Shown here: positions 441 to 9,516 of the stretch, piece after piece
Layout: every line of letters begins with the position of its first letter
Position numbering within the stretch: position 1 is the first letter of the stretch
DNA from: a virus
IMG/VR virus record: IMGVR_UViG_3300045999_011450
Span: 1-30,044 of that record
Length of the DNA: 30,044 bases
Direction: 5' to 3' (one strand)
Position numbers and translations under genes: made by a program
The notes under the pieces: generated by a model
What the model saw: the letters and a program-made list of their open reading frames with translations, nothing else
What the model was told of the DNA's origin: nothing
Databases searched by the model: none

Positions 441-1985
441 ATGACTTCTACAGAAATTTTCAACCAATGCGTAAAACTTAAACGGCAGAAAAAAAGCGTT
501 TCAAAGTTTTTATCTGATATTGGGTTTTCTTCTAATCAAGTTAAAACATTTAAAAAAAATTTAACTTTACTTATTAATGCTCCGACAGTAATAAGTAAAA
601 AAAAGAATAACGAAAGACATTTAAACAACAAAGCAGTAATTCAGTTGAATCTACCTGAAATAAACAATGTCTCTGAAGATGATTGGAAGAGCGGTTTAAA
701 ATACACTGCCAAGTATGTATACAATAAAGAAAATGATAAATATGTTGTTCATTTAAAAGCTGCTAACGGTAATATCGTTCTTCCTGGAGATACAGTTAGA
801 GGTATCTTCCAAAACTACTCTAACTGGTACAACAATGAAAAAAGTATCAATGAGATTTGTAGAAATTACAAAATTCCAAGAAACTATTTTACAGAGTTAA
901 AAAATGTTTTTGGTATCACTCATGATTCTGAGCCTTTTACCCCTGAAGAATTGATAGAACGAGATCTTCACGAAATGACAGATGATGTTCTTCAGAAAAA
1001 GAAATTTCAACTTCATCAAGAATTTCAAAGAAAAAGCTGGCAACAAACTGAAGAAGCTGCATCTAAATGGTTTAAGTTTGAAGAAGGGATTTTCAATCCT
1101 TTTACGAATTTTCTTTCTTCTTGGGTGCCTCCTAAATACACTCAACTAAAAAAAGAAAAAAATGCAAAAGCTATTCGTAAATCTAAAGCGCTTGTAGTTG
1201 GTCTTTCTGATATACATTTTGGAGCCAAAACGAATTTTAAAGAATCGTACCGAAATAAAGGCTATAGTACAGAAGATGCGGTTAAATGCTTAGAGTTGTA
1301 TGCTGAGAATATTGAAAAAGTTTCTGAAGAAAGAACCTACAATATTGATGAATGTGTGCTTGTTTCTTTAGGAGATATTCTACACACAACAGGAGCAGGG
1401 TTTACCACAAAGGGAACAATGCTCGTGCATGATTGTATCAAAGAAGAGCAATTTAATATTGCTTTTAATGCTATCGTTAAATTTATTAATAGTTTAATAG
1501 CCTTGTTTCCTAAAGTAACTGTTAAGAGTGTGAAGGGTAATCACAACGACTTTGGAGATTATGTACTGTTCAAAGCGCTAGAATGCTATTATAGATCTTG
1601 TAAAAATATTTCTTTCGAAGTGTTTCAAACAGATCATGGAATATTTAAACTTAAAAATAATCTGTTTGTAATTTCCCATGGATATAGTGCAGAGTATAAA
1701 GGAAGAATTCCTTCTTCATCTAAAGCTAGAGAAAGTTATATAGCTAATCTTTTTTTAGCTAAACCAGAAAGCCTGATTGGAATTAAGCAAAAAATTCTGT
1801 TGACTGCAGATCAGCATCATTTAGAAATGAAAGAGTACGCAGAATTCGAACATTACATGTTGTCTACTACAGTCAAAGGAGATAAACATAGTGAAGCTAT
1901 GGGATTAAATAATATTCCTAGACAATCTAGTTTTGTGATAGATGATGAAGGCATCAAAGAAGTTTTATATAGTTATGGACATTGA
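441..1985 (+). CDS. Calcineurin-like metallophosphoesterase with long N-terminal region
   Basis: A 514-residue protein whose C-terminal half carries the metallophosphoesterase motif series in order: D257-x-H259 (SDIHFG), G311-D312 (LGDIL), G366-N-H-N-D370, H413-G (ISHGY) and D457-x-H459-H460 (TADQHH), the last two standing for the usual H and GHTH blocks. These residues bind two metal ions and hydrolyse phosphoester bonds. The first 240 residues are basic and helical and include a stretch (120-160, INEICRNYKIPRNYFTEL) resembling a helix-turn-helix, so nucleic-acid binding is possible. Long phosphoesterases of this layout are frequent in phage genomes, usually without a known substrate. The start is the ATG at 441 behind an A-rich leader with no Shine-Dalgarno sequence. 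Metal-dependent phosphoesterase activity is well supported; nuclease versus nucleotide phosphatase is undecided. Confidence 0.85.
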   Translation: MTSTEIFNQCVKLKRQKKSVSKFLSDIGFSSNQVKTFKKNLTLLINAPTVISKKKNNERHLNNKAVIQLNLPEINNVSEDDWKSGLKYTAKYVYNKENDKYVVHLKAANGNIVLPGDTVRGIFQNYSNWYNNEKSINEICRNYKIPRNYFTELKNVFGITHDSEPFTPEELIERDLHEMTDDVLQKKKFQLHQEFQRKSWQQTEEAASKWFKFEEGIFNPFTNFLSSWVPPKYTQLKKEKNAKAIRKSKALVVGLSDIHFGAKTNFKESYRNKGYSTEDAVKCLELYAENIEKVSEERTYNIDECVLVSLGDILHTTGAGFTTKGTMLVHDCIKEEQFNIAFNAIVKFINSLIALFPKVTVKSVKGNHNDFGDYVLFKALECYYRSCKNISFEVFQTDHGIFKLKNNLFVISHGYSAEYKGRIPSSSKARESYIANLFLAKPESLIGIKQKILLTADQHHLEMKEYAEFEHYMLSTTVKGDKHSEAMGLNNIPRQSSFVIDDEGIKEVLYSYGH

Positions 1986-2495: not shown

Positions 2496-2511
2496 TGGTA
2501 TAATATAATGA
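2496..2511 (+). promoter_or_regulatory. Extended -10 promoter of the tRNA/RNA locus
   Basis: TGGTATAAT (hexamer 2499-2504) is a perfect extended -10 element; six bases later puts the start near 2511. It follows a T-rich run that directly trails the stop codon at 2486. Unlike most promoters here it lacks an upstream C-tract. Confidence 0.6.
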
Positions 2512-2674
2512 GTAGTATATAACTATTCAAAAATTTTAGATAATAGTATCTTATCTAAAAAGATAAGTCGCGAGTGTCTTGATCGAGATCGCAGTTTAAT
2601 GTCTGACTTGGTGTAACTGTATATCTTTCATTGTCTGCAGCTGCAACAGATGATCTAACCGCGAAGCAGCAAAC
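2511..2674 (+). ncRNA. Folded RNA leader ahead of the tRNA genes
   Basis: This 164-nt stretch has no plausible gene but folds into consecutive helices visible by eye: CTTATCT/AGATAAG (2550-2556 with 2561-2567, AAAA loop); an outer pairing TCGCG 2568-2572 with CGCGA 2660-2664; and inside it TCTT/GAGA (2577-2580 with 2585-2588), CAGTT/AACTG (2592-2596 with 2615-2619) and an 8-bp stem ATTGTCTG/CAGATGAT (2630-2637 with 2647-2654). The result is a multi-arm junction of about 97 nt ending ten bases before the first tRNA. It has no T-loop GTTCGA sequence, so it is not an ordinary tRNA. It could be a small RNA released when the tRNAs are processed, a degenerate tRNA-like element, or a leader affecting processing. 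Confidence 0.5.
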
Positions 2675-2747
2675 GGGACCGTAGCTCAATGGTTAGAGCA
2701 GGCGACTCATAATCGCTTGGTTGGGGGTTCGAATCCCTCCGGTCCCA
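2675..2747 (+). tRNA. tRNA-Ile2 (anticodon CAU, lysidine type, reads AUA)
   Basis: Complete cloverleaf: acceptor GGGACCG/CGGTCCC, D-arm GCTC/GAGC, anticodon stem GGCGA/TCGCT with loop CTCATAA, and T-arm GGGGG-TTCGAAT-CCCTC. Anticodon CAT could mean Met, but the G1-C72 pair rules out an initiator, and the D-loop and anticodon-arm sequence (TTAGAGCAGGCGACTCATAA) is the same as I recall for the E. coli minor isoleucine tRNA. The host TilS enzyme would convert C34 to lysidine so that it reads AUA. AUA is frequent in the AT-rich genes here. The CCA tail is not encoded. Confidence 0.9.
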
Positions 2748-2803
2748 CTTTTTTAATTTAAAAAATTGACTAAATTTTCTCAGTTAGTTAGAAATAACAC
2801 AAC

Positions 2804-2888
2804 GCTGATGTGGCGAAATGGCAGACGCAACAGACTTAAAATCTGTTGGAGCGCAAACTCCGTGTGGGTTCGAGTCCCACCATCAGTA
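2804..2888 (+). tRNA. tRNA-Leu (anticodon UAA)
   Basis: Class II tRNA with acceptor GCTGATG/CATCAGT (first pair G-U), anticodon stem ACAGA/TCTGT with loop CTTAAAA, a long variable arm (TGGAGCGCAAACTCCG) and T-arm GTGGG-TTCGAGT-CCCAC. It reads UUA, a leading leucine codon in the AT-rich genes of the window. CCA is not encoded. Confidence 0.93.
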
Positions 2889-2903
2889 CCCCCTTTCTTT
2901 TAT

Positions 2904-2977
2904 GTACCCATAGCTCAGTTGGATAGAGCAACGGATTTCTAATCCGTTGGTCGCAGGTTCGAGTCCTGCTGGGTACG
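2904..2977 (+). tRNA. tRNA-Arg (anticodon UCU, reads AGA)
   Basis: Acceptor GTACCCA/TGGGTAC, D-arm GCTC/GAGC, anticodon stem ACGGA/TCCGT with loop TTTCTAA, T-arm GCAGG-TTCGAGT-CCTGC and discriminator G as in bacterial Arg tRNAs. It reads AGA, by far the most used arginine codon in the larger genes here. A T-run at 2979-2987 follows directly, so transcription of the tRNA unit may end there, with the tRNA arm serving as the stem. Confidence 0.93.
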
Positions 2978-2992
2978 CTTTTTTTTTAACCT

Positions 2993-3036
2993 CCCCCTCT
3001 CAAAAAAACAAAATGAAATATGGTATAATAACTTGA
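2993..3036 (+). promoter_or_regulatory. C-tract/extended -10 promoter, start at the ATG of the next gene
   Basis: CCCCC at 2993-2997, then 26 bases, then TGGTATAAT (hexamer 3024-3029). Six bases after the hexamer falls exactly on the ATG at 3036, so the mRNA is predicted to be leaderless. Confidence 0.55.
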
Positions 3037-3200
3037 TGAAAACTATTCATATTTTTGCGTTAACATGGTTGCTAGCAGCCATGGATATTGTTATGTTAAA
3101 ATTAAACCAAGACACCCCCTCTGCCATCATTTGGGGAAGTTTGGCGCTAGCCGCCATGACCATTATGGTCGCAGCGGCTAAAGAGCTGAGGGGTGAATAA
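3036..3200 (+). CDS. 54-residue two-helix membrane protein
   Basis: MKTIHIFALTWLLAAMDIVM... then a short polar loop (KLNQDTPS) and a second hydrophobic helix (AIIWGSLALAAMTIMVAAA) ending in KELRGE. Two predicted membrane segments at about residues 4-21 and 30-48, with a charged C-terminus. The size and layout are those of small phage membrane proteins (holin-like or host-membrane modifiers), but no family is recognised. It has its own promoter and its own terminator. The promoter hexamer lies six bases before the ATG, implying a leaderless message. Codons ending in G or C are clearly commoner than in the structural genes, as in other small genes of this part. Confidence 0.65.
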   Translation: MKTIHIFALTWLLAAMDIVMLKLNQDTPSAIIWGSLALAAMTIMVAAAKELRGE

Positions 3201-3254
3201 CTTCCCCCTCAGCTGAAGGGCCCTGACTGTTAATTCAGTCAGGGCCTTTTTTTT
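3184..3254 (+). terminator. Double-hairpin terminator
   Basis: A 10-bp stem AGCTGAGGGG (3184-3193) with CCCCTCAGCT (3205-3214) spans the stop codon. It is followed by an 11-bp stem GGCCCTGACTG/CAGTCAGGGCC (3219-3229 with 3236-3246) and eight T's. The second is a textbook intrinsic terminator; the first may protect the 3' end or affect termination of translation. Confidence 0.9.
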
Positions 3255-3262
3255 AACTATTA

Positions 3263-3306
3263 CCCCCCCCATGAATAATCAATCACATTCTGGTATAGTA
3301 TATTAG
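3263..3306 (+). promoter_or_regulatory. C-tract/extended -10 promoter
   Basis: Eight C's at 3263-3270, 23 bases, then TGGTATAGT (hexamer 3294-3299). The predicted start is 3306-3307, at the ATG of the next gene. Confidence 0.6.
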
Positions 3307-3645
3307 ATGGCCACAAACAACCCATCCGCGAAAAAGCCTGTGAATCAGGCACGCCGCGCCGAACGTGAATTCGGCGTACGTCAATTGCGTAAGGCCTGGG
3401 TGGATTGGGCGGCCTGCAATATTGACGTTTTGAACATGGTAAAAAAACTTGAAACCGGAAGAGGGTATGGAAAGAATATAGGTATTCTAGAGGATTCGCT
3501 GCGCGCCCTGGCTTTCCCCGTGATGGGGGAGACCAACCACTGGCGAAACCGCACGCTTTTGGCACGAAAGTGCCAAAAAGCGATTAGGCATGTACCCCTC
3601 CTGACTTCCTCCGAAAGGAGGAAATCGGTATGGTTTCAAGAATAA
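3307..3645 (+). CDS. Basic 112-residue protein of unknown function, on a hairpin-rich message
   Basis: MATNNPSAKKPVNQARRAER... is rich in R, K and W, helical in appearance and has no signal or membrane segment; no family is recognised. It has its own promoter (start at or one base before the ATG, so leaderless) and its own terminator. The DNA is unlike its surroundings: GC-rich third positions and many perfect short inverted repeats, including GCCTG/CAGGC, GCCGAA/TTCGGC, ATTGC-AGGCC/GGCCT-GCAAT, AGAATA/TATTCT, and two stems closed by GAAA tetraloops (3554-3582 and 3606-3623). These could mean that the transcript is itself a structured RNA and the frame incidental. The open frame, sensible composition and codon use make a protein somewhat more likely. 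Confidence 0.5.
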   Translation: MATNNPSAKKPVNQARRAEREFGVRQLRKAWVDWAACNIDVLNMVKKLETGRGYGKNIGILEDSLRALAFPVMGETNHWRNRTLLARKCQKAIRHVPLLTSSERRKSVWFQE

Positions 3646-3652
3646 AATAAAC

Positions 3653-3713
3653 CCCTCATACGCATGGGTGCGTAGAGAGGGATAAGAGATAGGTGGTGCC
3701 TATCTCTTTTTTT
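3653..3713 (+). terminator. Intrinsic terminator with preceding hairpin
   Basis: Stem AGAGATAGG/CCTATCTCT (3685-3693 with 3699-3707, loop TGGTG) runs into a T-run to 3713. Just before it lies a hairpin with CCCTC/GAGGG and TACGC/GCGTA (3653-3681). The T-run is followed by AGCTATT, the sequence found after nearly every terminator in this region. Confidence 0.9.
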
Positions 3714-3732
3714 AGCTATTCAAGATCCCTTA

Positions 3733-3751
3733 TATAATATATAATAACCAC
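3733..3751 (+). promoter_or_regulatory. -10 elements directly before the DUF1501 gene
   Basis: Two overlapping TATAAT hexamers at 3733-3738 and 3740-3745. The second is followed by six bases and then the ATG at 3752, the leaderless spacing. No Shine-Dalgarno sequence is present. Confidence 0.5.
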
Positions 3752-5029
3752 ATGAACAGAAGAGACTTTATCTATACTGGACTAGTTGGTGGACTAGGTA
3801 TCACTACAGGAGATTTTTTAAAGCTTAGAGCTGAGTCTACTTTAAAAGCTAAAGCAGAATCTGTAATTCATATTTTCCTACCTGGAGGAGCTGCTGCTCA
3901 AGAAACATGGGATCCTCACCCTCAAGCCCCTATTGAATATAGAGGCCCATTAGGTACAGTTAAAACAAGTATTCCTGGAGTACACTTTTCAGAACATTTA
4001 AAACATACAGCTAAGATAGCAGATAAACTTACTGTTGTTAGATCTATGACTCATGGAGAAGCTGCGCATGAAAGAGGAACTATCAGTATGTTTACAGGAT
4101 ACAGACCATCTCCTGCTCTTGAGTATCCTAGCTTTGGTTCTGTAGTAGCACATGAATTAAAAGATAGAAACAATTTTCCTGCATATGTATGTGTTCCTCA
4201 GAAAATAGGTAATAATGGTTCTGATCCTGCAGATACAGGATATCTCTCAAAAGCATATGGACCTTTTAGTTTAGGTAGTGATCCTGCTAGTGAAAAATTT
4301 AAAGTAAGAGATCTTAATCTTCCTGATAGTGTTACTCCTGAAAGATTTGCTAAGCGTAGATCTATTCTAGATACAGTAGACAGCCATTTTAAATATATAG
4401 AAACAAGTGATAGCGTAGCTGCTATGGATGAGTTTTATCAAAAGGCATATAATATGATTAGCTCTCCTTCAGCTAGAGAAGCTTTTAATCTAGAAGCTGA
4501 AGAGGCTAAAATTAGAGAATTCTACGGAATGAATCAGGCTGGTCAAAGATTCCTCATGGCTAGACGATTAGTGGAAGCTGGAGTTAGATTTGTAAGTGTT
4601 ACTTATGGAGGATGGGATATGCATACAGGTATAGCTAGTGGAATAAGTAAACAGCTTCCCTCATTTGATCAAGCTTACGCTGCACTTATTACTGATCTAG
4701 AACAAAGAGGTTTACTTGATTCTACACTAGTCATGGTAAGTTCTGAATTTGGACGTACTCCTAAAATCAATAAAGATGCAGGTAGAGATCATTGGCCTAG
4801 AGTGTTCAGTGTAGCTTTTGCTGGAGGAGGATTTAAAAAAGGATTAATATATGGTTCATCTGATGCTACAGGTAGCGACGTAGAAGATAATCCTCTGACA
4901 GTAGAAAATCTAGCAGCCACTATGTATACCCAATTAGGTATAGATCCAGATAAGCAACTCATGGCTCCAGGAGGTAGACCTGCAAGTATTGTAAAAGAAG
5001 GTAAAGTAATACAAGAGCTTGTATCTTAA
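3752..5029 (+). CDS. DUF1501 protein (alkaline phosphatase/sulfatase-like fold) with Tat-like signal
   Basis: A 425-residue protein opening with MNRRDF and a glycine-rich hydrophobic stretch (residues 8-23), a twin-arginine-type export signal. The family landmarks follow: FLPGGAAAQETWDP (about 42-55), IRGP-like YRGPLGTVKTSIPGV, HLKHTAKIADKLTVVRSMTH, GGWDMH (286-291), SSEFGRTP (330-337) and GRDHWPR (344-350). DUF1501 proteins belong to the alkaline phosphatase/sulfatase superfamily and are abundant in Planctomycetes, Verrucomicrobia and some Bacteroidetes, where they are normally encoded next to DUF1549/DUF1553 proteins; their substrate is unknown. The length is close to the bacterial form and the motifs are intact, so it looks functional. 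Its occurrence in a phage is unusual. It is predicted to be leaderless, and its arginines are nearly all AGA, matching the phage tRNA. Confidence 0.88.
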   Translation: MNRRDFIYTGLVGGLGITTGDFLKLRAESTLKAKAESVIHIFLPGGAAAQETWDPHPQAPIEYRGPLGTVKTSIPGVHFSEHLKHTAKIADKLTVVRSMTHGEAAHERGTISMFTGYRPSPALEYPSFGSVVAHELKDRNNFPAYVCVPQKIGNNGSDPADTGYLSKAYGPFSLGSDPASEKFKVRDLNLPDSVTPERFAKRRSILDTVDSHFKYIETSDSVAAMDEFYQKAYNMISSPSAREAFNLEAEEAKIREFYGMNQAGQRFLMARRLVEAGVRFVSVTYGGWDMHTGIASGISKQLPSFDQAYAALITDLEQRGLLDSTLVMVSSEFGRTPKINKDAGRDHWPRVFSVAFAGGGFKKGLIYGSSDATGSDVEDNPLTVENLAATMYTQLGIDPDKQLMAPGGRPASIVKEGKVIQELVS

Positions 5030-5071
5030 CCCCCCCTAAATATTTATAACTATTTTGGTATAATAATATGG
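5030..5071 (+). promoter_or_regulatory. C-tract/extended -10 promoter of the large noncoding RNA
   Basis: Seven C's at 5030-5036 directly after the stop codon, 22 bases, then TGGTATAAT (hexamer 5059-5064). The predicted start is G5071, five bases before a stem that would form the 5' end of the RNA. Confidence 0.7.
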
Positions 5072-5588
5072 AGTGCAATTAGCTGCAGCTGATTGTAACA
5101 TCTCGTCAGGTTTCATCGTATGGTTGATCACCGTATGCCTGTCAGAATGGCTCCTACGCTACCTTTGCGGCGTATGACGAGCAAAGGCTGGTTTTACTAC
5201 CAGATCCAAGTGTAGCCTTGTCCGTATCCGGGGCGTACTGGTACGGTGTTTAACGGCGGAGGTTCGTAATTGTAAAACCTAACCGCAAGTGGTCTGTATA
5301 GATCTTGTAGTATATTCGTGAGAAATATACCGGACTATACAGGCTGCGAAAGGTGTCGCGTATGCACCTATTTATAATTATGATACGCAGCCTCACTGCG
5401 CCGGGGTATATACCTGAGAGGGTAAGCGCGCAGCGGCTTTGGCGGAGTCGATATACATAACCGCAAATGGTGGTGCATGTGCAAGGCTCAAACGTAGATG
5501 CCTACACATGCACTGCCACCCCTTTTGGGTGAATGGGTGCATGAGGGAGAGTGTCAGGGGTGGCACTCTCCCTCTAACCTATTTTTTT
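5071..5588 (+). ncRNA. Large structured noncoding RNA, about 515 nt
   Basis: A promoter at one end, a terminator at the other, no credible gene between, GC content visibly above the flanks, and helices tiling nearly the whole length. By eye: CAATTAGC/GCTGATTG (5076-5083 with 5088-5095); long-range CTCGTCA/TGACGAG (5102-5108 with 5175-5181); CGTATGGT/ACCGTATG (5117-5124 with 5130-5137); CTGGT/ACCAG (5188-5192 with 5199-5203); CCGTA/TACGG (5222-5226 with 5242-5246); GCGGAGGTT with AACCT-AA-CCGC (5256-5264 with 5276-5286); CTGTATAG/CTATACAG (5294-5301 with 5335-5342) enclosing GTATATT/AATATAC; GGCTGCG/CGCAGCC (5342-5348 with 5386-5392) enclosing AGGTG/CACCT; CTGCGC/GCGCAG (5396-5401 with 5428-5433); GGTGG-TGCATGTG with CACATGCA-CTG-CCACC (5469-5481 with 5505-5520). 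A pseudoknot is possible: loop CCTTTGC 5162-5168 with GCAAAGG 5181-5187. Large phage RNAs such as GOLLD and ROOL are the obvious comparison; identity with either is not claimed. Confidence 0.82.
5543..5588 (+). terminator. Terminator of the large noncoding RNA
   Basis: A perfect 11-bp stem GAGGGAGAGTG/CACTCTCCCTC (5543-5553 with 5564-5574), then seven bases, then seven T's and AGCTAT. The gap between stem and T-run is longer than usual, so the stem may also be the 3' closing helix of the RNA. Confidence 0.75.
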
Positions 5589-5614
5589 AGCTATCAGAGA
5601 TTATATTATTATAT

Positions 5615-5626
5615 TATAATATAAGT
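5615..5626 (+). promoter_or_regulatory. -10 element directly before phoH
   Basis: TATAAT at 5615-5620 followed by six bases and the ATG at 5627: leaderless spacing, no Shine-Dalgarno sequence, no C-tract. Confidence 0.5.
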
Positions 5627-6379
5627 ATGGCTAAACAGAAGACTGAACCCAAGAAAGATACTTCACCCAAGATATATCAGAGAGAAAAAATAGACTTTGA
5701 TTTACATATCAGAGAGTTAGCTTGGACAGAGAAACAAAAAGCTCTTATAGAATTAGGAGCTAGCAAAGAGGCTAAAATTATTTTTTTAGCTGGTCCAGCA
5801 GGTACTAGTAAAACACTTACCTCTGTAAGAATAGGATTAGAACTATTAAATCAAAAGAAAGTAAGTGATCTTATCTTTGTAAGAGCTGCTGTAGAGAGTG
5901 CAGATTCTAAACTAGGTTTTCTTCCTGGAGATATTGCAGGAAAGTATGAGCCCTATATGGGACCATTTGAAGATAAGATAGAAGAACTGCTTCCTGTGGG
6001 AGAAGCTAAAAGATTAAAGACAGAAGGAAGGCTAGTCTATCAACCTATTAACTTTATAAGAGGAGCTAGCTGGACTGCTAGATGTGTTATTGTGGATGAG
6101 TGTCAGAATATGACACTTAACGAGATCCAAACTATTCTTACTCGTATAGGTAAATTTACTAGAATGATTCTCTGTGCAGACAGTGCTCAGAGCGATCTTC
6201 CTAAGAGTAAACAGGGAGGATTTGATAAATGCCTACATATGTTCAATACTCCTGAAGCTGAGCGGATGGGTATCTATAGTCTAGCATTTACAGAGGAGGA
6301 TATTATGAGGAGTGAGATCTGTAAGTTTATTGTTAAAACTTTTCAGGATAATAATCATATATTAACCCAGCCTCACTAG
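5627..6379 (+). CDS. phoH: PhoH-like P-loop ATPase
   Basis: A 250-residue cytoplasmic protein with the PhoH layout: a basic N-terminal tail, Walker A GPAGTSKT (56-63, S in place of the usual G before K), the family block RAAVESADSKLGFLPGD...KYEPYMGP (about 86-113), FIRGASWTARCVIVDECQN with the Walker B acidic pair D157-E158, and a C-terminal SDLPKSKQGGFDK segment. PhoH proteins are ATPases linked to RNA metabolism; phages carry them widely, often with no link to phosphate. It is followed after one base by the DUF1549-like gene, forming a two-gene operon behind a promoter at leaderless spacing. The family is certain; the role in this phage is not. Confidence 0.93.
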   Translation: MAKQKTEPKKDTSPKIYQREKIDFDLHIRELAWTEKQKALIELGASKEAKIIFLAGPAGTSKTLTSVRIGLELLNQKKVSDLIFVRAAVESADSKLGFLPGDIAGKYEPYMGPFEDKIEELLPVGEAKRLKTEGRLVYQPINFIRGASWTARCVIVDECQNMTLNEIQTILTRIGKFTRMILCADSAQSDLPKSKQGGFDKCLHMFNTPEAERMGIYSLAFTEEDIMRSEICKFIVKTFQDNNHILTQPH

Positions 6380-6380
6380 T

Positions 6381-6977
6381 ATGAGAAAAGATCTCCTCGT
6401 ATTAGGTATATTTATACTTATTATTGCAGGTGAACTATATCCTAGTGGAAACAAACATGAGAGTAAACTAATCAGAAGACTCTATCTAGATGCTATAGGA
6501 ACAATACCTACTCCAGAAGAGATAGACTGGTATTGCATATATAACAAAGATGCGTATCAGAGTGCCCTAGATTATATAGTTTCTTTTAAGTCTAGTAAGT
6601 TTACTCCTAGATATAGAAATAAGAGTAAGTATGAGTTGCTGGAAATTTTTACTAGAAAAGACTATTTTTACCCAGAAGTAAAAAGGTTCAATTCCAGTAA
6701 GAATATAGAAGACATGATTAGATATGCTTCTGGAATACCAGATAGGAATATAGAAGACTGTAAAGATAAATTTGTAAGAGATTCTCTAGTTGTTTCAGAA
6801 GATTATATAGATGCGGCAGACTATATTTGTATGTGGCTAATGAGCAGGAATACTAATCTTGAAGAAGCTAATAGGCTCAATCTGATAGCTAAAAAAATGA
6901 AAGGTGAGAAAAGTGAAAAGATAATGAGAGCTCTATTAGAGGAGATAGTTAAGTTTGAAGACGTAGTAACTAGATAG
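6381..6977 (+). CDS. Short DUF1549-like exported protein
   Basis: 198 residues with an N-terminal hydrophobic segment (residues 5-17) that looks like a signal peptide or membrane anchor. Residues 32-48 read RRLYLDAIGTIPTPEEI, which closely follows the opening signature of DUF1549 proteins (R-R-x-Y-L-D-x-x-G-x-x-P-T-P-E-E), and the next helix (AYQSALDYIVSFKSSKFTPRY) fits the family's following 'Y..LVD.LL.S..Y..R' pattern. Bacterial DUF1549 proteins are far longer, usually with DUF1553 and often a cytochrome domain, and are encoded with DUF1501 proteins. This copy keeps only the first part. The rest (70-198) is charged and helical with no motif I recognise. It is co-transcribed with phoH (1-bp gap), and a DUF1501 gene sits two units upstream. 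The match rests on one motif block, so the confidence is moderate. Confidence 0.6.
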   Translation: MRKDLLVLGIFILIIAGELYPSGNKHESKLIRRLYLDAIGTIPTPEEIDWYCIYNKDAYQSALDYIVSFKSSKFTPRYRNKSKYELLEIFTRKDYFYPEVKRFNSSKNIEDMIRYASGIPDRNIEDCKDKFVRDSLVVSEDYIDAADYICMWLMSRNTNLEEANRLNLIAKKMKGEKSEKIMRALLEEIVKFEDVVTR

Positions 6978-6979
6978 CT

Positions 6980-7032
6980 CCCTTAATATATCTAGAGAAT
7001 AATTGGTATAATAATATGAAGCATGGTGCTTC
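6980..7032 (+). promoter_or_regulatory. Cassette leader 1: promoter plus 5' stem-loop
   Basis: CCC at 6980-6982, 24 bases, TGGTATAAT (hexamer 7007-7012), predicted start about 7019. The transcript then begins with GAAGCA-TGG-TGCTTC (7018-7032), a hairpin at its very 5' end, as in the stem-loops that protect or tune phage early mRNAs. Confidence 0.7.
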
Positions 7033-7050
7033 AAATTAACCAATATACAT

Positions 7051-7323
7051 ATGCGTGAAGCAAAACTGTTAAATGAAAAAGAATTAATTAACCTGATTGA
7101 AAAAACGAAAAACACAGGGGTTTTTCGATTATCAGGAAGAGAGGGGATATACACAGTCAATGTTGAGAATAACAATTTAACTCTCCATGGAGATGGAGAG
7201 GCGTTAGAAGTTTATAGCGACAGAGCAATTCTGCTCAATAACTATAAACTTCTATTGCAAGAAATAGAAGATCTGACTTGGTTAGAATTAAGCATTTTTA
7301 TACCATTAGACTTGTCAATTTAA
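7051..7323 (+). CDS. 90-residue protein of unknown function (cassette 1)
   Basis: MREAKLLNEKELINLIEKTKNTG... has a helical, charged N-terminal third, a central beta-rich part (GVFRLSGREGIYTVNVENNNLTLHG) and an acidic, leucine-rich C-terminus. No signal peptide, membrane segment or known family is seen. It has its own promoter, 5' stem-loop and terminator. No Shine-Dalgarno sequence precedes the ATG; instead there is AAATTAACC, a sequence repeated before neighbouring cassette genes. Such individually regulated small genes in phages commonly encode early host-takeover proteins, but nothing here shows the target. Confidence 0.7.
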   Translation: MREAKLLNEKELINLIEKTKNTGVFRLSGREGIYTVNVENNNLTLHGDGEALEVYSDRAILLNNYKLLLQEIEDLTWLELSIFIPLDLSI

Positions 7324-7331
7324 TCCAACTC

Positions 7332-7357
7332 AAAAGAGGTCCAACCCCTCTTTTTTT
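7332..7357 (+). terminator. Intrinsic terminator (cassette 1)
   Basis: AAAAGAGG/CCTCTTTT stem with a 7-nt loop (7332-7339 with 7347-7354) running into T's, then AGCTATT. Confidence 0.85.
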
Positions 7358-7394
7358 AGCTATTGTATTTGCTTTAAATTATTCAAGTAATAAA

Positions 7395-7423
7395 TGGTAT
7401 AATAATATGAAGCATGGTGCTTC
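7395..7423 (+). promoter_or_regulatory. Cassette leader 2: promoter plus 5' stem-loop
   Basis: TGGTATAAT (hexamer 7398-7403), predicted start about 7410, then the hairpin GAAGCA-TGG-TGCTTC (7409-7423), identical to that of leader 1. No C-tract here; the upstream side is T-rich (TTTGCTTTAAATT). Confidence 0.68.
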
Positions 7424-7445
7424 AAATTAACCCAAATAGAATAGT

Positions 7446-7631
7446 ATGGAAGTAAAGAACGTTTTTTTAGTCGAGCAACTTTTTGAGGAGTGGGTGCTCC
7501 TCATGAAAGTAGAGAAAGAAGACGAGGCAGAGAAAACTGCCGCGCTATTGAATAAGACTCTCTTGAAACCAGTGAGAGTGCTTAAATGCACCGTTGAAGA
7601 AACGGTCCTTTTCAACACCTCCAACCAGTAA
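7446..7631 (+). CDS. 61-residue protein of unknown function (cassette 2)
   Basis: MEVKNVFLVEQLFEEWVLLMKVEKEDEAEKTAALLNKT... is a small, acidic, mainly helical soluble protein with no recognised family. It lies between its own promoter/stem-loop leader and its own terminator, and is preceded by AAATTAACCC rather than a Shine-Dalgarno site. Codon choice includes more G- and C-ending codons than the structural genes. An overlapping frame on the opposite strand is an antisense shadow. Confidence 0.65.
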   Translation: MEVKNVFLVEQLFEEWVLLMKVEKEDEAEKTAALLNKTLLKPVRVLKCTVEETVLFNTSNQ

Positions 7632-7639
7632 ACCCCGAG

Positions 7640-7682
7640 AAAGAGCGTAATGGTCAGTACCTATTACTGTCGCTCTTTTTTT
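7640..7682 (+). terminator. Intrinsic terminator, duplicated at 9042
   Basis: AAAGAGCG/CGCTCTTT (7640-7647 with 7671-7678) around an inner TAATGG...CCTATTA stem, then T's and AGCTATTA. The same terminator with two base changes occurs at 9042-9084 behind an unrelated gene. Confidence 0.88.
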
Positions 7683-7690
7683 AGCTATTA

Positions 7691-7746
7691 CCCCCCTCAA
7701 TATAACTAGAGAATAATTGGTATAATAATATGAAGCATGAAGCTTC
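7691..7746 (+). promoter_or_regulatory. Cassette leader 3: C-tract promoter plus 5' stem-loop
   Basis: CCCCCC 7691-7696, 24 bases, TGGTATAAT (hexamer 7721-7726), predicted start about 7733, then GAAGC-ATGAA-GCTTC (7732-7746). The loop differs from leaders 1 and 2 while the stem and flanks are the same. Confidence 0.7.
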
Positions 7747-7773
7747 AAATTAACCCAAATAAATAGCATTAAC

Positions 7774-8043
7774 ATGAGCTTTGATATGATTCAGAAAGTG
7801 TATCGTTTTCCAAACAGTTTAGGGGCCAGCGTGGTGTGCCATGAGTTTTCCTATGGAGGAAAAAATGGCCTGTGGGAGCTTGCGTTAATTAGATTCAAGA
7901 ACATGGAGGACCCAGAAAGCTGGGAGTTTTATTACCATGACCTAACCAACAACGACGTGGTAGGTTGGTTAAGTCAAAAGGATGTGGAAGAGCTTTTAGA
8001 GAAAATTAAAGCTCTGCCTGCTCCTCCTCCTACCCCTCCTTAA
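7774..8043 (+). CDS. 89-residue protein with proline-rich tail (cassette 3)
   Basis: MSFDMIQKVYRFPNSLGASVV... appears to be a compact beta-alpha protein: strands around YRFPN, ASVVCHEFSYGG, LWELALIRF and WEFYYHDL, a closing helix (SQKDVEELLEKIKAL), then a PAPPPTPP tail. No family is recognised. The strands with H and Y residues and the terminal helix resemble small phage proteins that pair as dimers, but that is only an impression. It is a stand-alone cassette with promoter, 5' stem-loop and terminator, and no Shine-Dalgarno site. Codon use is less AT-biased than in the structural genes. Confidence 0.7.
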   Translation: MSFDMIQKVYRFPNSLGASVVCHEFSYGGKNGLWELALIRFKNMEDPESWEFYYHDLTNNDVVGWLSQKDVEELLEKIKALPAPPPTPP

Positions 8044-8078
8044 ACAATGCGCGTCACCTGCGCTAGAGTGGTGAGGCT

Positions 8079-8098
8079 AATCGGCTTCGATTTTTTTT
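8079..8098 (+). terminator. Intrinsic terminator (cassette 3)
   Basis: Stem AATCG/CGATT with a GCTT loop (8079-8092) and T's to 8098, followed by AGCTATT. An upstream TCACC/GGTGA pairing (8054-8073) may add a second hairpin. Confidence 0.75.
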
Positions 8099-8202
8099 AG
8101 CTATTATATACCCCCCCTAAATAATTAATATTATTTATGGTATAGTATTATGAATAGCAAATGGTTTGCTAATTCAAACTTAACCCAAAAAATCAGAATC
8201 AT
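8091..8202 (+). repeat. Repeated cassette leader, copy A (promoter, stem-loop, spacer)
   Basis: First of three near-identical leaders. It contains the T-run and AGCTATTATATA, CCCCCCC (8111-8117), 23 bases, TGGTATAGT (hexamer 8141-8146), predicted start near 8153, the stem AGCAAA-TGG-TTTGCT, then AATTCAAACTTAACCC and a fixed stretch up to the ATG. It differs from copies B and C at two bases and by one extra T. Confidence 0.85.
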
Positions 8203-8550
8203 ATGAAAGAAAAAATTGAAGCACTCGTTGAGTTGTCAGGTATCAGAAAAGCATGGATGATGATGACGGAACAACTTCCGTACATGTCAAAAATTCTGCC
8301 AGAGGAAGCTTTGGTGGCATTTACTCTTAAATATTTCGAAGAAACGTTCTCTGAAGAAGAGATTGATTTCTTAGCGGAATTTCACGCCAATCCAATAGCA
8401 AAAACAATCATGACTAAGTTCATGCACGTGATGCCAGCGATGCAAACTAGCATGCAAAAGTTTTGCGCGGATAGAATTGAAAATATGACTCCTCTTGAGA
8501 GAGAAGAATTATTTGAAGATTTGACCCTCAGTTATGGCGATCACGAGTAG
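8203..8550 (+). CDS. DUF2059-like protein without signal peptide
   Basis: 115 residues, all helical. The order ALVELSGIRKAWMMMTEQLPYM, PEEALVAFTLKYFEETFSEEEI, DFLAEFHANPIAKTIMTKF and then an M-rich helix follows the DUF2059 pattern, in which 'LL..sG....M..q' is followed by 'f..eEi..l..Fy.sP.g..i'. Most DUF2059 proteins are exported to the periplasm; this copy has no signal peptide and would remain in the cytoplasm unless exported by another route. Function in the family is unknown. It sits in a cassette with repeated leader copy A, and a tiny membrane-protein gene with a strong ribosome binding site follows before the shared terminator. Confidence 0.65.
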   Translation: MKEKIEALVELSGIRKAWMMMTEQLPYMSKILPEEALVAFTLKYFEETFSEEEIDFLAEFHANPIAKTIMTKFMHVMPAMQTSMQKFCADRIENMTPLEREELFEDLTLSYGDHE

Positions 8551-8578
8551 TAAACCTAAACAAGAAAGGAGGTGAATA

Positions 8579-8665
8579 ATGACTGAAACTATAAACAAAG
8601 TAGGAGTGACGGTGCTTGTCGTCTTGGGGTGGGCAAGCCTCCTCAAAACGCTACTGAAAAAGTAG
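8579..8665 (+). CDS. 28-residue single-helix membrane peptide with a perfect Shine-Dalgarno site
   Basis: MTETINKVGVTVLVVLGWAS... has one hydrophobic helix (about residues 8-23) and a basic LLKTLLKK end, typical of tiny phage membrane peptides. What supports it is the ribosome binding site: AAAGGAGGTGA at 8565-8575, a full match to the 16S rRNA anti-Shine-Dalgarno end, four bases before the ATG. No other gene in the window has such a site. It is second in the cassette after the DUF2059-like gene. The function is unknown; disturbing or signalling at the inner membrane would fit the size. Confidence 0.62.
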   Translation: MTETINKVGVTVLVVLGWASLLKTLLKK

Positions 8666-8670
8666 CAAGA

Positions 8671-8714
8671 AAAGAGACAGAAAGGATTAAATTCCCTAGA
8701 GTGTCTCTTTTTTT
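8671..8714 (+). terminator. Intrinsic terminator
   Basis: AAAGAGACA/TGTCTCTTT (8671-8679 with 8702-8710) with a 22-nt loop, then T's and AGCTATT. Confidence 0.8.
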
Positions 8715-8818
8715 AGCTATTATATACCCCCCCTAAATAATTAACATTATTTGTGGTATAGTATTATGAATAGCAAATGGTTTGCTAATTCAAACTTAAC
8801 CCAAAAAATCAGAATCAT
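8708..8818 (+). repeat. Repeated cassette leader, copy B
   Basis: Identical by eye to copy C over 114 bases, including the ATG: T-run, AGCTATTATATA, CCCCCCC (8727-8733), 23 bases, TGGTATAGT (hexamer 8757-8762), predicted start near 8769, AGCAAA-TGG-TTTGCT stem, TTAACCC spacer. Confidence 0.88.
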
Positions 8819-9022
8819 ATGGACATCAAAACAATCGGTAAAGTCGTTGCAGGAGCAGGAGCAGTCTGTGGTTTGGTAGTTGCCGTCAAAAAAGGATTTC
8901 AACATGCTTCCTGTTGGTATATGAGCAGGTTAGTCAAAAAAGAAATCAAAAAACGGCAGAATGAAAATGAAAAAAATGATTTTGTAGGAAGCTGCACCGA
9001 AGCGGCAGACGCAGCGCTGTAA
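8819..9022 (+). CDS. 67-residue small membrane protein
   Basis: MDIKTIGKVVAGAGAVCGLVVAV... has one glycine/alanine-rich hydrophobic helix (about residues 6-24) followed by a strongly basic stretch (KKGFQHASCWYMSRLVKKEIKKR) and an acidic, alanine-rich end. By the positive-inside rule the C-terminal part would be cytoplasmic. No family is recognised. It is the only gene between leader copy B and the terminator at 9042. The ATG is fixed by the repeated leader, which ends at exactly the same place before the genes at 8203 and 9189. Confidence 0.65.
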   Translation: MDIKTIGKVVAGAGAVCGLVVAVKKGFQHASCWYMSRLVKKEIKKRQNENEKNDFVGSCTEAADAAL

Positions 9023-9041
9023 ACGCTGTAAAAATCAGAAA

Positions 9042-9084
9042 AAAGAGCGCAATGGGCAGTACCTATTACTGTCGCTCTTTTTTT
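9042..9084 (+). terminator. Intrinsic terminator, copy of that at 7640
   Basis: AAAGAGCG/CGCTCTTT (9042-9049 with 9073-9080) with the same inner sequence as 7640-7682, followed by T's and AGCTATT. Confidence 0.88.
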
Positions 9085-9188
9085 AGCTATTATATACCCC
9101 CCCTAAATAATTAACATTATTTGTGGTATAGTATTATGAATAGCAAATGGTTTGCTAATTCAAACTTAACCCAAAAAATCAGAATCAT
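9078..9188 (+). repeat. Repeated cassette leader, copy C
   Basis: Same as copy B: CCCCCCC (9097-9103), TGGTATAGT (hexamer 9127-9132), predicted start near 9139, AGCAAA-TGG-TTTGCT stem, TTAACCC spacer, then the ATG at 9189. Confidence 0.88.
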
Positions 9189-9296
9189 ATGAAAATTGAA
9201 ATGTCTTGCTGGAACATCCTTTTGGCAGCACTTGCGATCAAAGTTGGCTGGGTAGTAGGAGAGCGTGTAGGAGAAAAAATCAGATCTTGGATGTAA
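9189..9296 (+). CDS. 35-residue membrane peptide
   Basis: MKIEMSCWNILLAALAIKVG... has one hydrophobic helix (residues 7-24) and a basic, amphipathic end (GERVGEKIRSWM). The ATG sits where the repeated leader ends, the same place as in the genes at 8203 and 8819, so this reading frame is the natural one even though it is short. Its TAA overlaps the ATG of a second tiny membrane peptide (TAATG), implying translational coupling of the pair. The function is unknown. Confidence 0.6.
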   Translation: MKIEMSCWNILLAALAIKVGWVVGERVGEKIRSWM

Positions 9297-9394
9297 TGAA
9301 ATGGTCAACTGTGGCAGTAATCTACCTTGTGGTAGCAGTAACTGCTATTGCGGTAGAGGAAGCGTTTAAGAGAATTGAAAAGCGCTTCAAGTAA
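9296..9394 (+). CDS. 32-residue membrane peptide, coupled to the preceding gene
   Basis: MKWSTVAVIYLVVAVTAIAV... has one valine/alanine-rich helix (residues 4-20), then EEAFKRIEKRFK, a basic amphipathic tail. It starts at the ATG inside TAATG at the end of the 35-residue gene and ends seven bases before the terminator stem. A longer reading from 9206 in the same frame would run across the upstream gene and is not preferred. Two overlapping tiny membrane peptides behind one promoter suggest a two-component membrane factor. Confidence 0.58.
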   Translation: MKWSTVAVIYLVVAVTAIAVEEAFKRIEKRFK

Positions 9395-9400
9395 AAAAAG

Positions 9401-9444
9401 AGAGAATATTGTAGAATTAAATTTCTCAGTATTCTCTTTTTTTT
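9401..9444 (+). terminator. Intrinsic terminator ending the cassette array
   Basis: An 11-bp stem AGAGAATATTG/CAGTATTCTCT (9401-9411 with 9427-9437, one T-G pair) followed by T's and AGCTATT. Beyond it, 9445-9516 is A/T-rich with a weak TATAAA but no C-tract promoter. Confidence 0.85.
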
Positions 9445-9516
9445 AGCTATTAGATAGTATAAAATAATAAAAAATAATTTATAAATAACTGCAACAAAAA
9501 CTTTAAATTAATATCT

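Follow-up and report, generated by a model that had tools for sequence, protein, structure and literature searches.

Large noncoding RNAs of phages and prophages include two classes, GOLLD and ROOL, both of which have recently been shown to build RNA-only cages, although their role is unknown (PMC12286853). ROOL, which is 659 nt long in the solved example, forms an octameric cage, while GOLLD, many of whose members exceed 800 nt, forms a 14-mer cage (PMC12286853). Other large noncoding transcripts, likewise of unknown role, have been shown by RNA-seq in ICP1 (about 800 nt) and in phage K (lnc001 and lnc002) (PMC7567579, PMC9241854). Large phage noncoding RNAs similar in size to the RNA described below often lie near tRNA genes, and some of them reach very high abundance (PMC7567579, PMC9241854, PMC12286853).

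The present work concerns a candidate RNA in a 30,044-nucleotide phage contig from IMG/VR, the whole of which was analysed and is referred to here as the window. The contig, which derives from a virus of bacteria, is probably a fragment of a larger phage genome; related contigs reach lengths of up to 236 kb. The tRNA genes extend to 2978 and so lie 2.1 kb upstream of the candidate RNA, as the first-pass annotation of this DNA had indicated, and downstream of the DUF1549/PSCyt2-like gene there follow small genes in a row and then probable virion genes and glycosyltransferase-like genes (see the table). The nearest cellular relatives of the DUF1501 protein are found in Chthoniobacteraceae, with about 70% identity to these and to proteins of other Verrucomicrobiota, and a member of the Verrucomicrobiota is probably the host; this likeness is a hint and proof of nothing, since the gene could have been picked up elsewhere. 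The DUF1501 and DUF1549/PSCyt2-like families, which are typical of Planctomycetota and Verrucomicrobiota, are both borne by this phage group.

Table 1. Features of the window and of related contigs (contig handle before the coordinates); p, probability of the predicted helix; WD, well-determined helix.
Feature	Positions	Strand	Remarks
Exonuclease-like protein	441-1985		PHROG 284
tRNA-Met/Leu/Arg genes	2675-2978		
DUF1501 protein	3752-5029		
C-tract	5030-5036	+	Upstream of promoter; precedes most cassette promoters of this phage
Extended -10 promoter TGGTATAAT	5056-5064	+	One of the nine exact TGGTATARTANNNTG copies
Putative noncoding RNA, about 518 nt	5071-5588	+	No ORF >35 codons; MFE -205.6 kcal/mol, z -5.9; helix excess
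5' hairpin, self-complementary loop UGCA	5074-5097	+	WD, p 0.97; such a hairpin opens other cassette transcripts too
Stem-loop, self-complementary hexamer UGAUCA (5125-5130) in apical loop	5107-5141	+	WD; 5107-5111 x 5137-5141 p 0.76
Hairpin CCTTTGC/GCAAAGG	5162-5187	+	WD, p 0.98; nested in best fold
Hairpin CTGGT/ACCAG	5188-5203	+	WD, p 0.98
Domain closed by 13-bp helix	5264-5383	+	WD; 5264-5276 x 5371-5383 p 0.85
13-bp helix inside the domain	5289-5301 x 5335-5347	+	WD, p 0.90
Hairpin inside the domain	5351-5369	+	WD, p 0.78
Direct repeat unit 1 ACCTAACCGCAAGTGGT	5277-5293	+	Unit 2 at 5455-5471, 88% alike
Long hairpin, 14 bp and inner helices	5468-5518	+	WD, p 0.97
Terminator region	5531-5594	+	Stem 5531-5538 x 5577-5584 (5531-5584, WD) enclosing hairpin 5543-5574 (WD, p 0.99), then TTTTTTTAGCTAT
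Probable separate phoH promoter	5608-5627	+	TATAAT just before ATG; boxes of this kind also upstream of phoH in relatives
PhoH	5627-6379		
DUF1549/PSCyt2-like protein	6381-6977		
RNA B	L201:14082-14452, L307:14222-14713, L313:5547-5759		Three-member family
RNA D	L231:11573-12040		Orphan noncoding structured RNA, z -5.3; has the promoter
RNA F	L193:1509-1680, L213:6434-6604, L211:6040-6210, L229:16614-16783, L286:6824-6991		Also in L290, L292, L294-L297, L299 and others
tmRNA genes	L193:1682-2075, L227:14179-14609, L267:1411-1835		RF00023 and/or ARAGORN; also L292, L295, L298, L299

From 2.4 to 9.5 kb (2496-9450) the window is occupied by successive monocistronic cassettes, which share a single type of promoter and a single terminator tail. 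The promoter sequence TGGTATARTANNNTG occurs in nine exact copies, all on the + strand between 2.4 and 9.2 kb, where 0.03 would be expected by chance, and the tail TTTTTTTAGCTAT in eight + strand copies, each of which closes a cassette, with 0.00 expected. Most cassettes hold a single small gene, a short 5' hairpin is predicted to open many of the cassette transcripts, and C runs ahead of promoters are also found at 3292, 7719, 8139, 8755 and 9125. The same tail is present in near-identical form in related phages.

Positions 5071-5588 form one complete promoter-to-terminator cassette. The C-tract and extended -10 promoter to which the first-pass annotation had drawn attention are in place, and transcription would start at about 5071. 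That the cassette has its own terminator, as was also proposed, is borne out by the copy of TTTTTTTAGCTAT at 5582-5594, whose T-run (5582-5588) would mark the end of the transcript and which is approached by a composite stem: the strong hairpin stops 7 nt short of the T-run, and the distance is bridged by the second helix. A simple scan for terminators missed this one because the hairpin meets the T-run only by way of that second helix. Since phoH starts 33 bases past the terminator tail, and since ORFs of up to 35 codons are present, the region might be taken for the 5' UTR of phoH or for an mRNA of very short peptides, but this is scarcely credible: a terminator stands in between, and because phoH has a TATAAT box of its own and is preceded in relatives by different cassettes, the RNA should not be regarded as a phoH leader.

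The coding capacity of the cassette is small. The longest + strand ORF between promoter and terminator has 35 codons, no - strand ORF with a start codon and at least 60 aa was found overlapping 5071-5588, and the sole + strand ORF of at least 60 aa (5439-5624, with a TTG start) extends beyond the terminator; the earlier judgement that no credible gene lies here agrees with these results, and the transcript is presumably not translated. The region thus combines the marks of an independent noncoding transcript, namely a promoter, a terminator and no ORF above 35 codons.

The folding of the region exceeds chance. None of 100 dinucleotide shuffles of 5071-5588 has as low a minimum free energy, and much of the excess is due to the 3' hairpins, that of the terminator included: z is -3.1 for 5071-5500, which leaves out the terminator, and -2.3 for 5071-5465, which leaves out both 3' hairpins and which none of 60 shuffles equals. 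In this window z alone is not diagnostic, because some small-gene cassettes also give very low values (3011-3440, for example, has z -12.3). The number of perfect Watson-Crick helices is a measure that is independent of the energy model, and by this measure 5071-5588 contains 16 helices of at least 7 bp versus 5.5 in shuffles, while 5071-5500 contains 11 versus 4.0; 0 of 40 shuffles reach the observed number in either case. The description of a helix-rich structured region in the first-pass annotation is consistent with this count and with the z of -5.9, and the sequence gives good support to a structured transcript that is independent and not translated.

If a cassette had lost its small gene and kept its transcription, then an RNA of no function would be left behind, and the fast-changing cassette row is a setting in which this could occur; junk would be expected to be an orphan, and gene-bearing cassettes here have likewise low z. 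Against such decay, the helix excess remains when the terminator is left out, a remnant ORF was looked for and none was found, and perfect helices of such length should erode if they were not under selection. This explanation is accordingly judged improbable. The GC content of the RNA (0.44-0.48) is higher than that of most flanking sequence (0.33-0.40), as had been stated previously, but it is not unique, since GC rises to 0.51 in the cassettes at 3.0-3.7 kb.

No single global fold is assigned to the RNA, because the structures in the ensemble differ widely (with a mean base-pair distance of 111) and only about ten helices, those marked in the table, have a probability above 0.75; the fold is poorly determined around 5231-5270 and 5391-5470. 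The pairing of 5162-5168 with 5181-5187, which had been put forward as a possible pseudoknot, is predicted with p 0.98 to be an ordinary nested helix. A pseudoknot at 5162-5187 requires 5102-5108 x 5175-5181, which overlaps at position 5181 and lies +4.0 kcal/mol above the best fold. The two helices said to abut coaxially at 5342/5343 fare differently from one another: CTGTATAG/CTATACAG is part of the best fold, while GGCTGCG/CGCAGCC costs +5.2 kcal/mol. In the energy model the pseudoknot and the coaxial stack are therefore alternatives, and the favoured fold lies elsewhere.

A regulatory RNA, which would act by antisense pairing or by the titration of an RNA-binding protein or of another RNA, could also present several hairpins, and phage-satellite noncoding RNAs with an antisense match to leaders are known (PMC7567579). 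The hexamer CGTATG, present in four copies (about 5% of shuffles hold any hexamer four times), and the repeated AACCGCAARTGGT motif could be read in the same way. The overall repeat content of 5071-5588 is within chance, however. Antisense complementarity to other parts of the window extends over 12 nt at most, a length that shuffles also give (mean 11.4, maximum 14), and long helices take up much of the RNA, so that a regulatory RNA of this kind is considered unlikely.

A second contig, IMGVR_UViG_3300042518_001804, also contains this RNA and differs at 2 of 9507 overlapping bases, which argues against an assembly accident. Searches for a homologue of differing sequence in IMG/VR, GTDB genomes, GenBank phages and about 90 related contigs found none. 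A blastn search of GenBank phages with 5071-5588 gave chance matches only, and searches of the related contigs by blastn and nhmmer, with whole records compared by blastn, gave only the near-identical contig and pieces of promoter and terminator. Degenerate-pattern scans, which by our estimate would overlook many relatives that are less than about 85% identical, found only the near-identical contig in IMG/VR (six patterns, with open frames of the RNA as proxies) and nothing in GTDB genomes.

Among known classes, none was recognised. The Rfam search that the first-pass annotation had recommended, with GOLLD, ROOL, OLE, tmRNA, RNase P and introns included, matched no family of Rfam 15, and when the isolated 536 bases were searched at the gathering threshold and at E up to 10, the only matches were three to microRNAs, far below threshold. 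The covariance models of ROOL (at E up to 10) and of GOLLD (which represents its conserved 3' region) did not match 5071-5588, and no tmRNA, with its tRNA-like ends and tag ORF, was found in the window with RF00023 or with ARAGORN. The earlier suggestion of a divergent GOLLD or ROOL member thus finds no backing in Rfam. Membership of a known class (GOLLD, ROOL, OLE, tmRNA, group I/II intron or RNase P) in very divergent form would fit the size and the tRNA vicinity, which recall GOLLD and ROOL, and the tmRNAs of related phages indicate that large RNAs belong to this phage group; these true tmRNAs, however, score 121-149 bits with the same Rfam library that yields nothing credible here, and such membership is very unlikely.

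In its anatomy the window RNA nevertheless resembles the described systems. The window RNA is like ROOL in size, in phage origin, in the vicinity of tRNA genes (here tRNA-Met/Leu/Arg), in its dense helices and in the absence of a protein, but the P1-P19 stems of ROOL cannot be traced in it. With GOLLD it has in common phage origin, tRNA vicinity and the possibility of self-complementary loops, but it is shorter, 518 nt from its putative start to the T-run where GOLLD is mostly above 800 nt, and it lacks the conserved 3' region that Rfam recognises. The transcripts of ICP1 and phage K are likewise large phage noncoding RNAs which have been likened to GOLLD and ROOL by size or position; they are shown by RNA-seq, whereas the window RNA is predicted, and no sequence relation of the latter to any GenBank phage was found. 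We read the window RNA as lineage-restricted, probably trans-acting and GOLLD/ROOL-like in its working, while being of GOLLD/ROOL type only by resemblance.

Further noncoding RNAs came to light when the related contigs were scanned for long gene-free stretches. RNA B has a 3' domain, about 215 nt long, which shows covariation and has a T-run at its end; in its three-sequence alignment 95.9% of cells are paired, and 14 pairs have changed on both sides versus at most 2 when the partners are slid. In L201 it shares its promoter type and T-run tail with the window RNA and has no ORF above 27 codons, whereas in L313 a small ORF stands in place of the noncoding 5' part. It thus resembles the window RNA in promoter type and noncoding character (L201, L307), in accessory region (L201) and in its tail, but its covariance model, R1, finds neither the window RNA nor RNA D: the best match on the RNA strand is 5.4 bits at 5500-5573, in the 3' hairpins, which is below chance-level matches elsewhere in the window. 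RNA D, which has four similar hairpins of type GCATGCTANGNAAGTATGC, lies 2.2 kb after a tRNA-Met/Leu/Arg trio, between exonuclease and virion genes, as does the window RNA. A large noncoding RNA therefore recurs in this region of the phage group, and those seen are not demonstrably one family. An apparent motif GCGG-AA-UGG common to the window RNA (A), B and D was dropped, as the B model finds neither A nor D, and a similarity of the 5' ends of B, D, E and other cassettes is due to the shared promoter and 5' hairpin. A supposed T-arm-ended RNA in L006, upstream of a 92% identical PhoH, looks more like a small gene and terminator when read in frame by eye.

RNA F is a conserved structured RNA of about 170 nt which occurs in many of these phages, either flanked by tRNA genes or immediately ahead of tmRNA, and of which a partial second copy follows in several contigs. 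In 12 aligned sequences 97% of consensus cells are paired, 16 pairs have changed on both sides, and there are 57 compensating cells versus 4-7 in slid controls; a search of Rfam at E up to 5 gave nothing. The case for a new RNA family, newness being judged against Rfam, is stronger for RNA F than for the window RNA, in which the F model R2 has no match up to E = 1. The tmRNAs of the relatives are, like the window RNA, large structured RNAs of the same phage group, but neither Rfam nor ARAGORN finds a tmRNA in the window. Two sequences (L213 at about 6820-7110, apparently within a tRNA gene, and L245:1323-2124) look by eye like group I introns and are below Rfam gathering where scanned, and a GC-rich noncoding stretch in L247 (about 8956-9274) looks by eye like RNase P RNA and is unreported by Rfam at the gathering threshold.

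The interpretation to which we give slightly better than an even chance is that 5071-5588 gives rise to a stably folded RNA, about 518 nt long and not translated, whose role during infection is structural and exercised in trans. It is favoured because its promoter and terminator are those common to the cassettes, because no ORF exceeds 35 codons and folding and helices are in excess, and because the corresponding region of related contigs holds noncoding structured cassettes (B, D) under promoters of this type. The strong promoter type of single-gene accessory cassettes would here drive a gene-free unit of a large phage, and its product would most likely work by scaffolding or self-assembly, or by binding a host or phage partner, as RNAs of GOLLD/ROOL type may do. 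Self-complementary loops, among them UGCA (5084-5087) and UGAUCA (5125-5130), could hold a homo-oligomer together, although such palindromic loops are few and chance could account for them. A trans-acting structural role combined with self-assembly is conjecture and is put forward tentatively; self-assembly is the most specific guess, and a regulatory role and an empty cassette both remain in contention. It is doubtful that this RNA stands as the first of a new class of large phage RNAs which fold and self-assemble without protein, and that the phage group repeatedly exchanges unrelated large RNAs (A, B and D) of one function within a single accessory region.

With its unrelated large structured RNAs in one promoter-driven cassette region, the phage group offers a natural comparison, and its genomes also hold tRNAs, tmRNA and the covarying family F. 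If unrelated RNAs replace one another in this way, then their function may rest on bulk structure or assembly and not on sequence.
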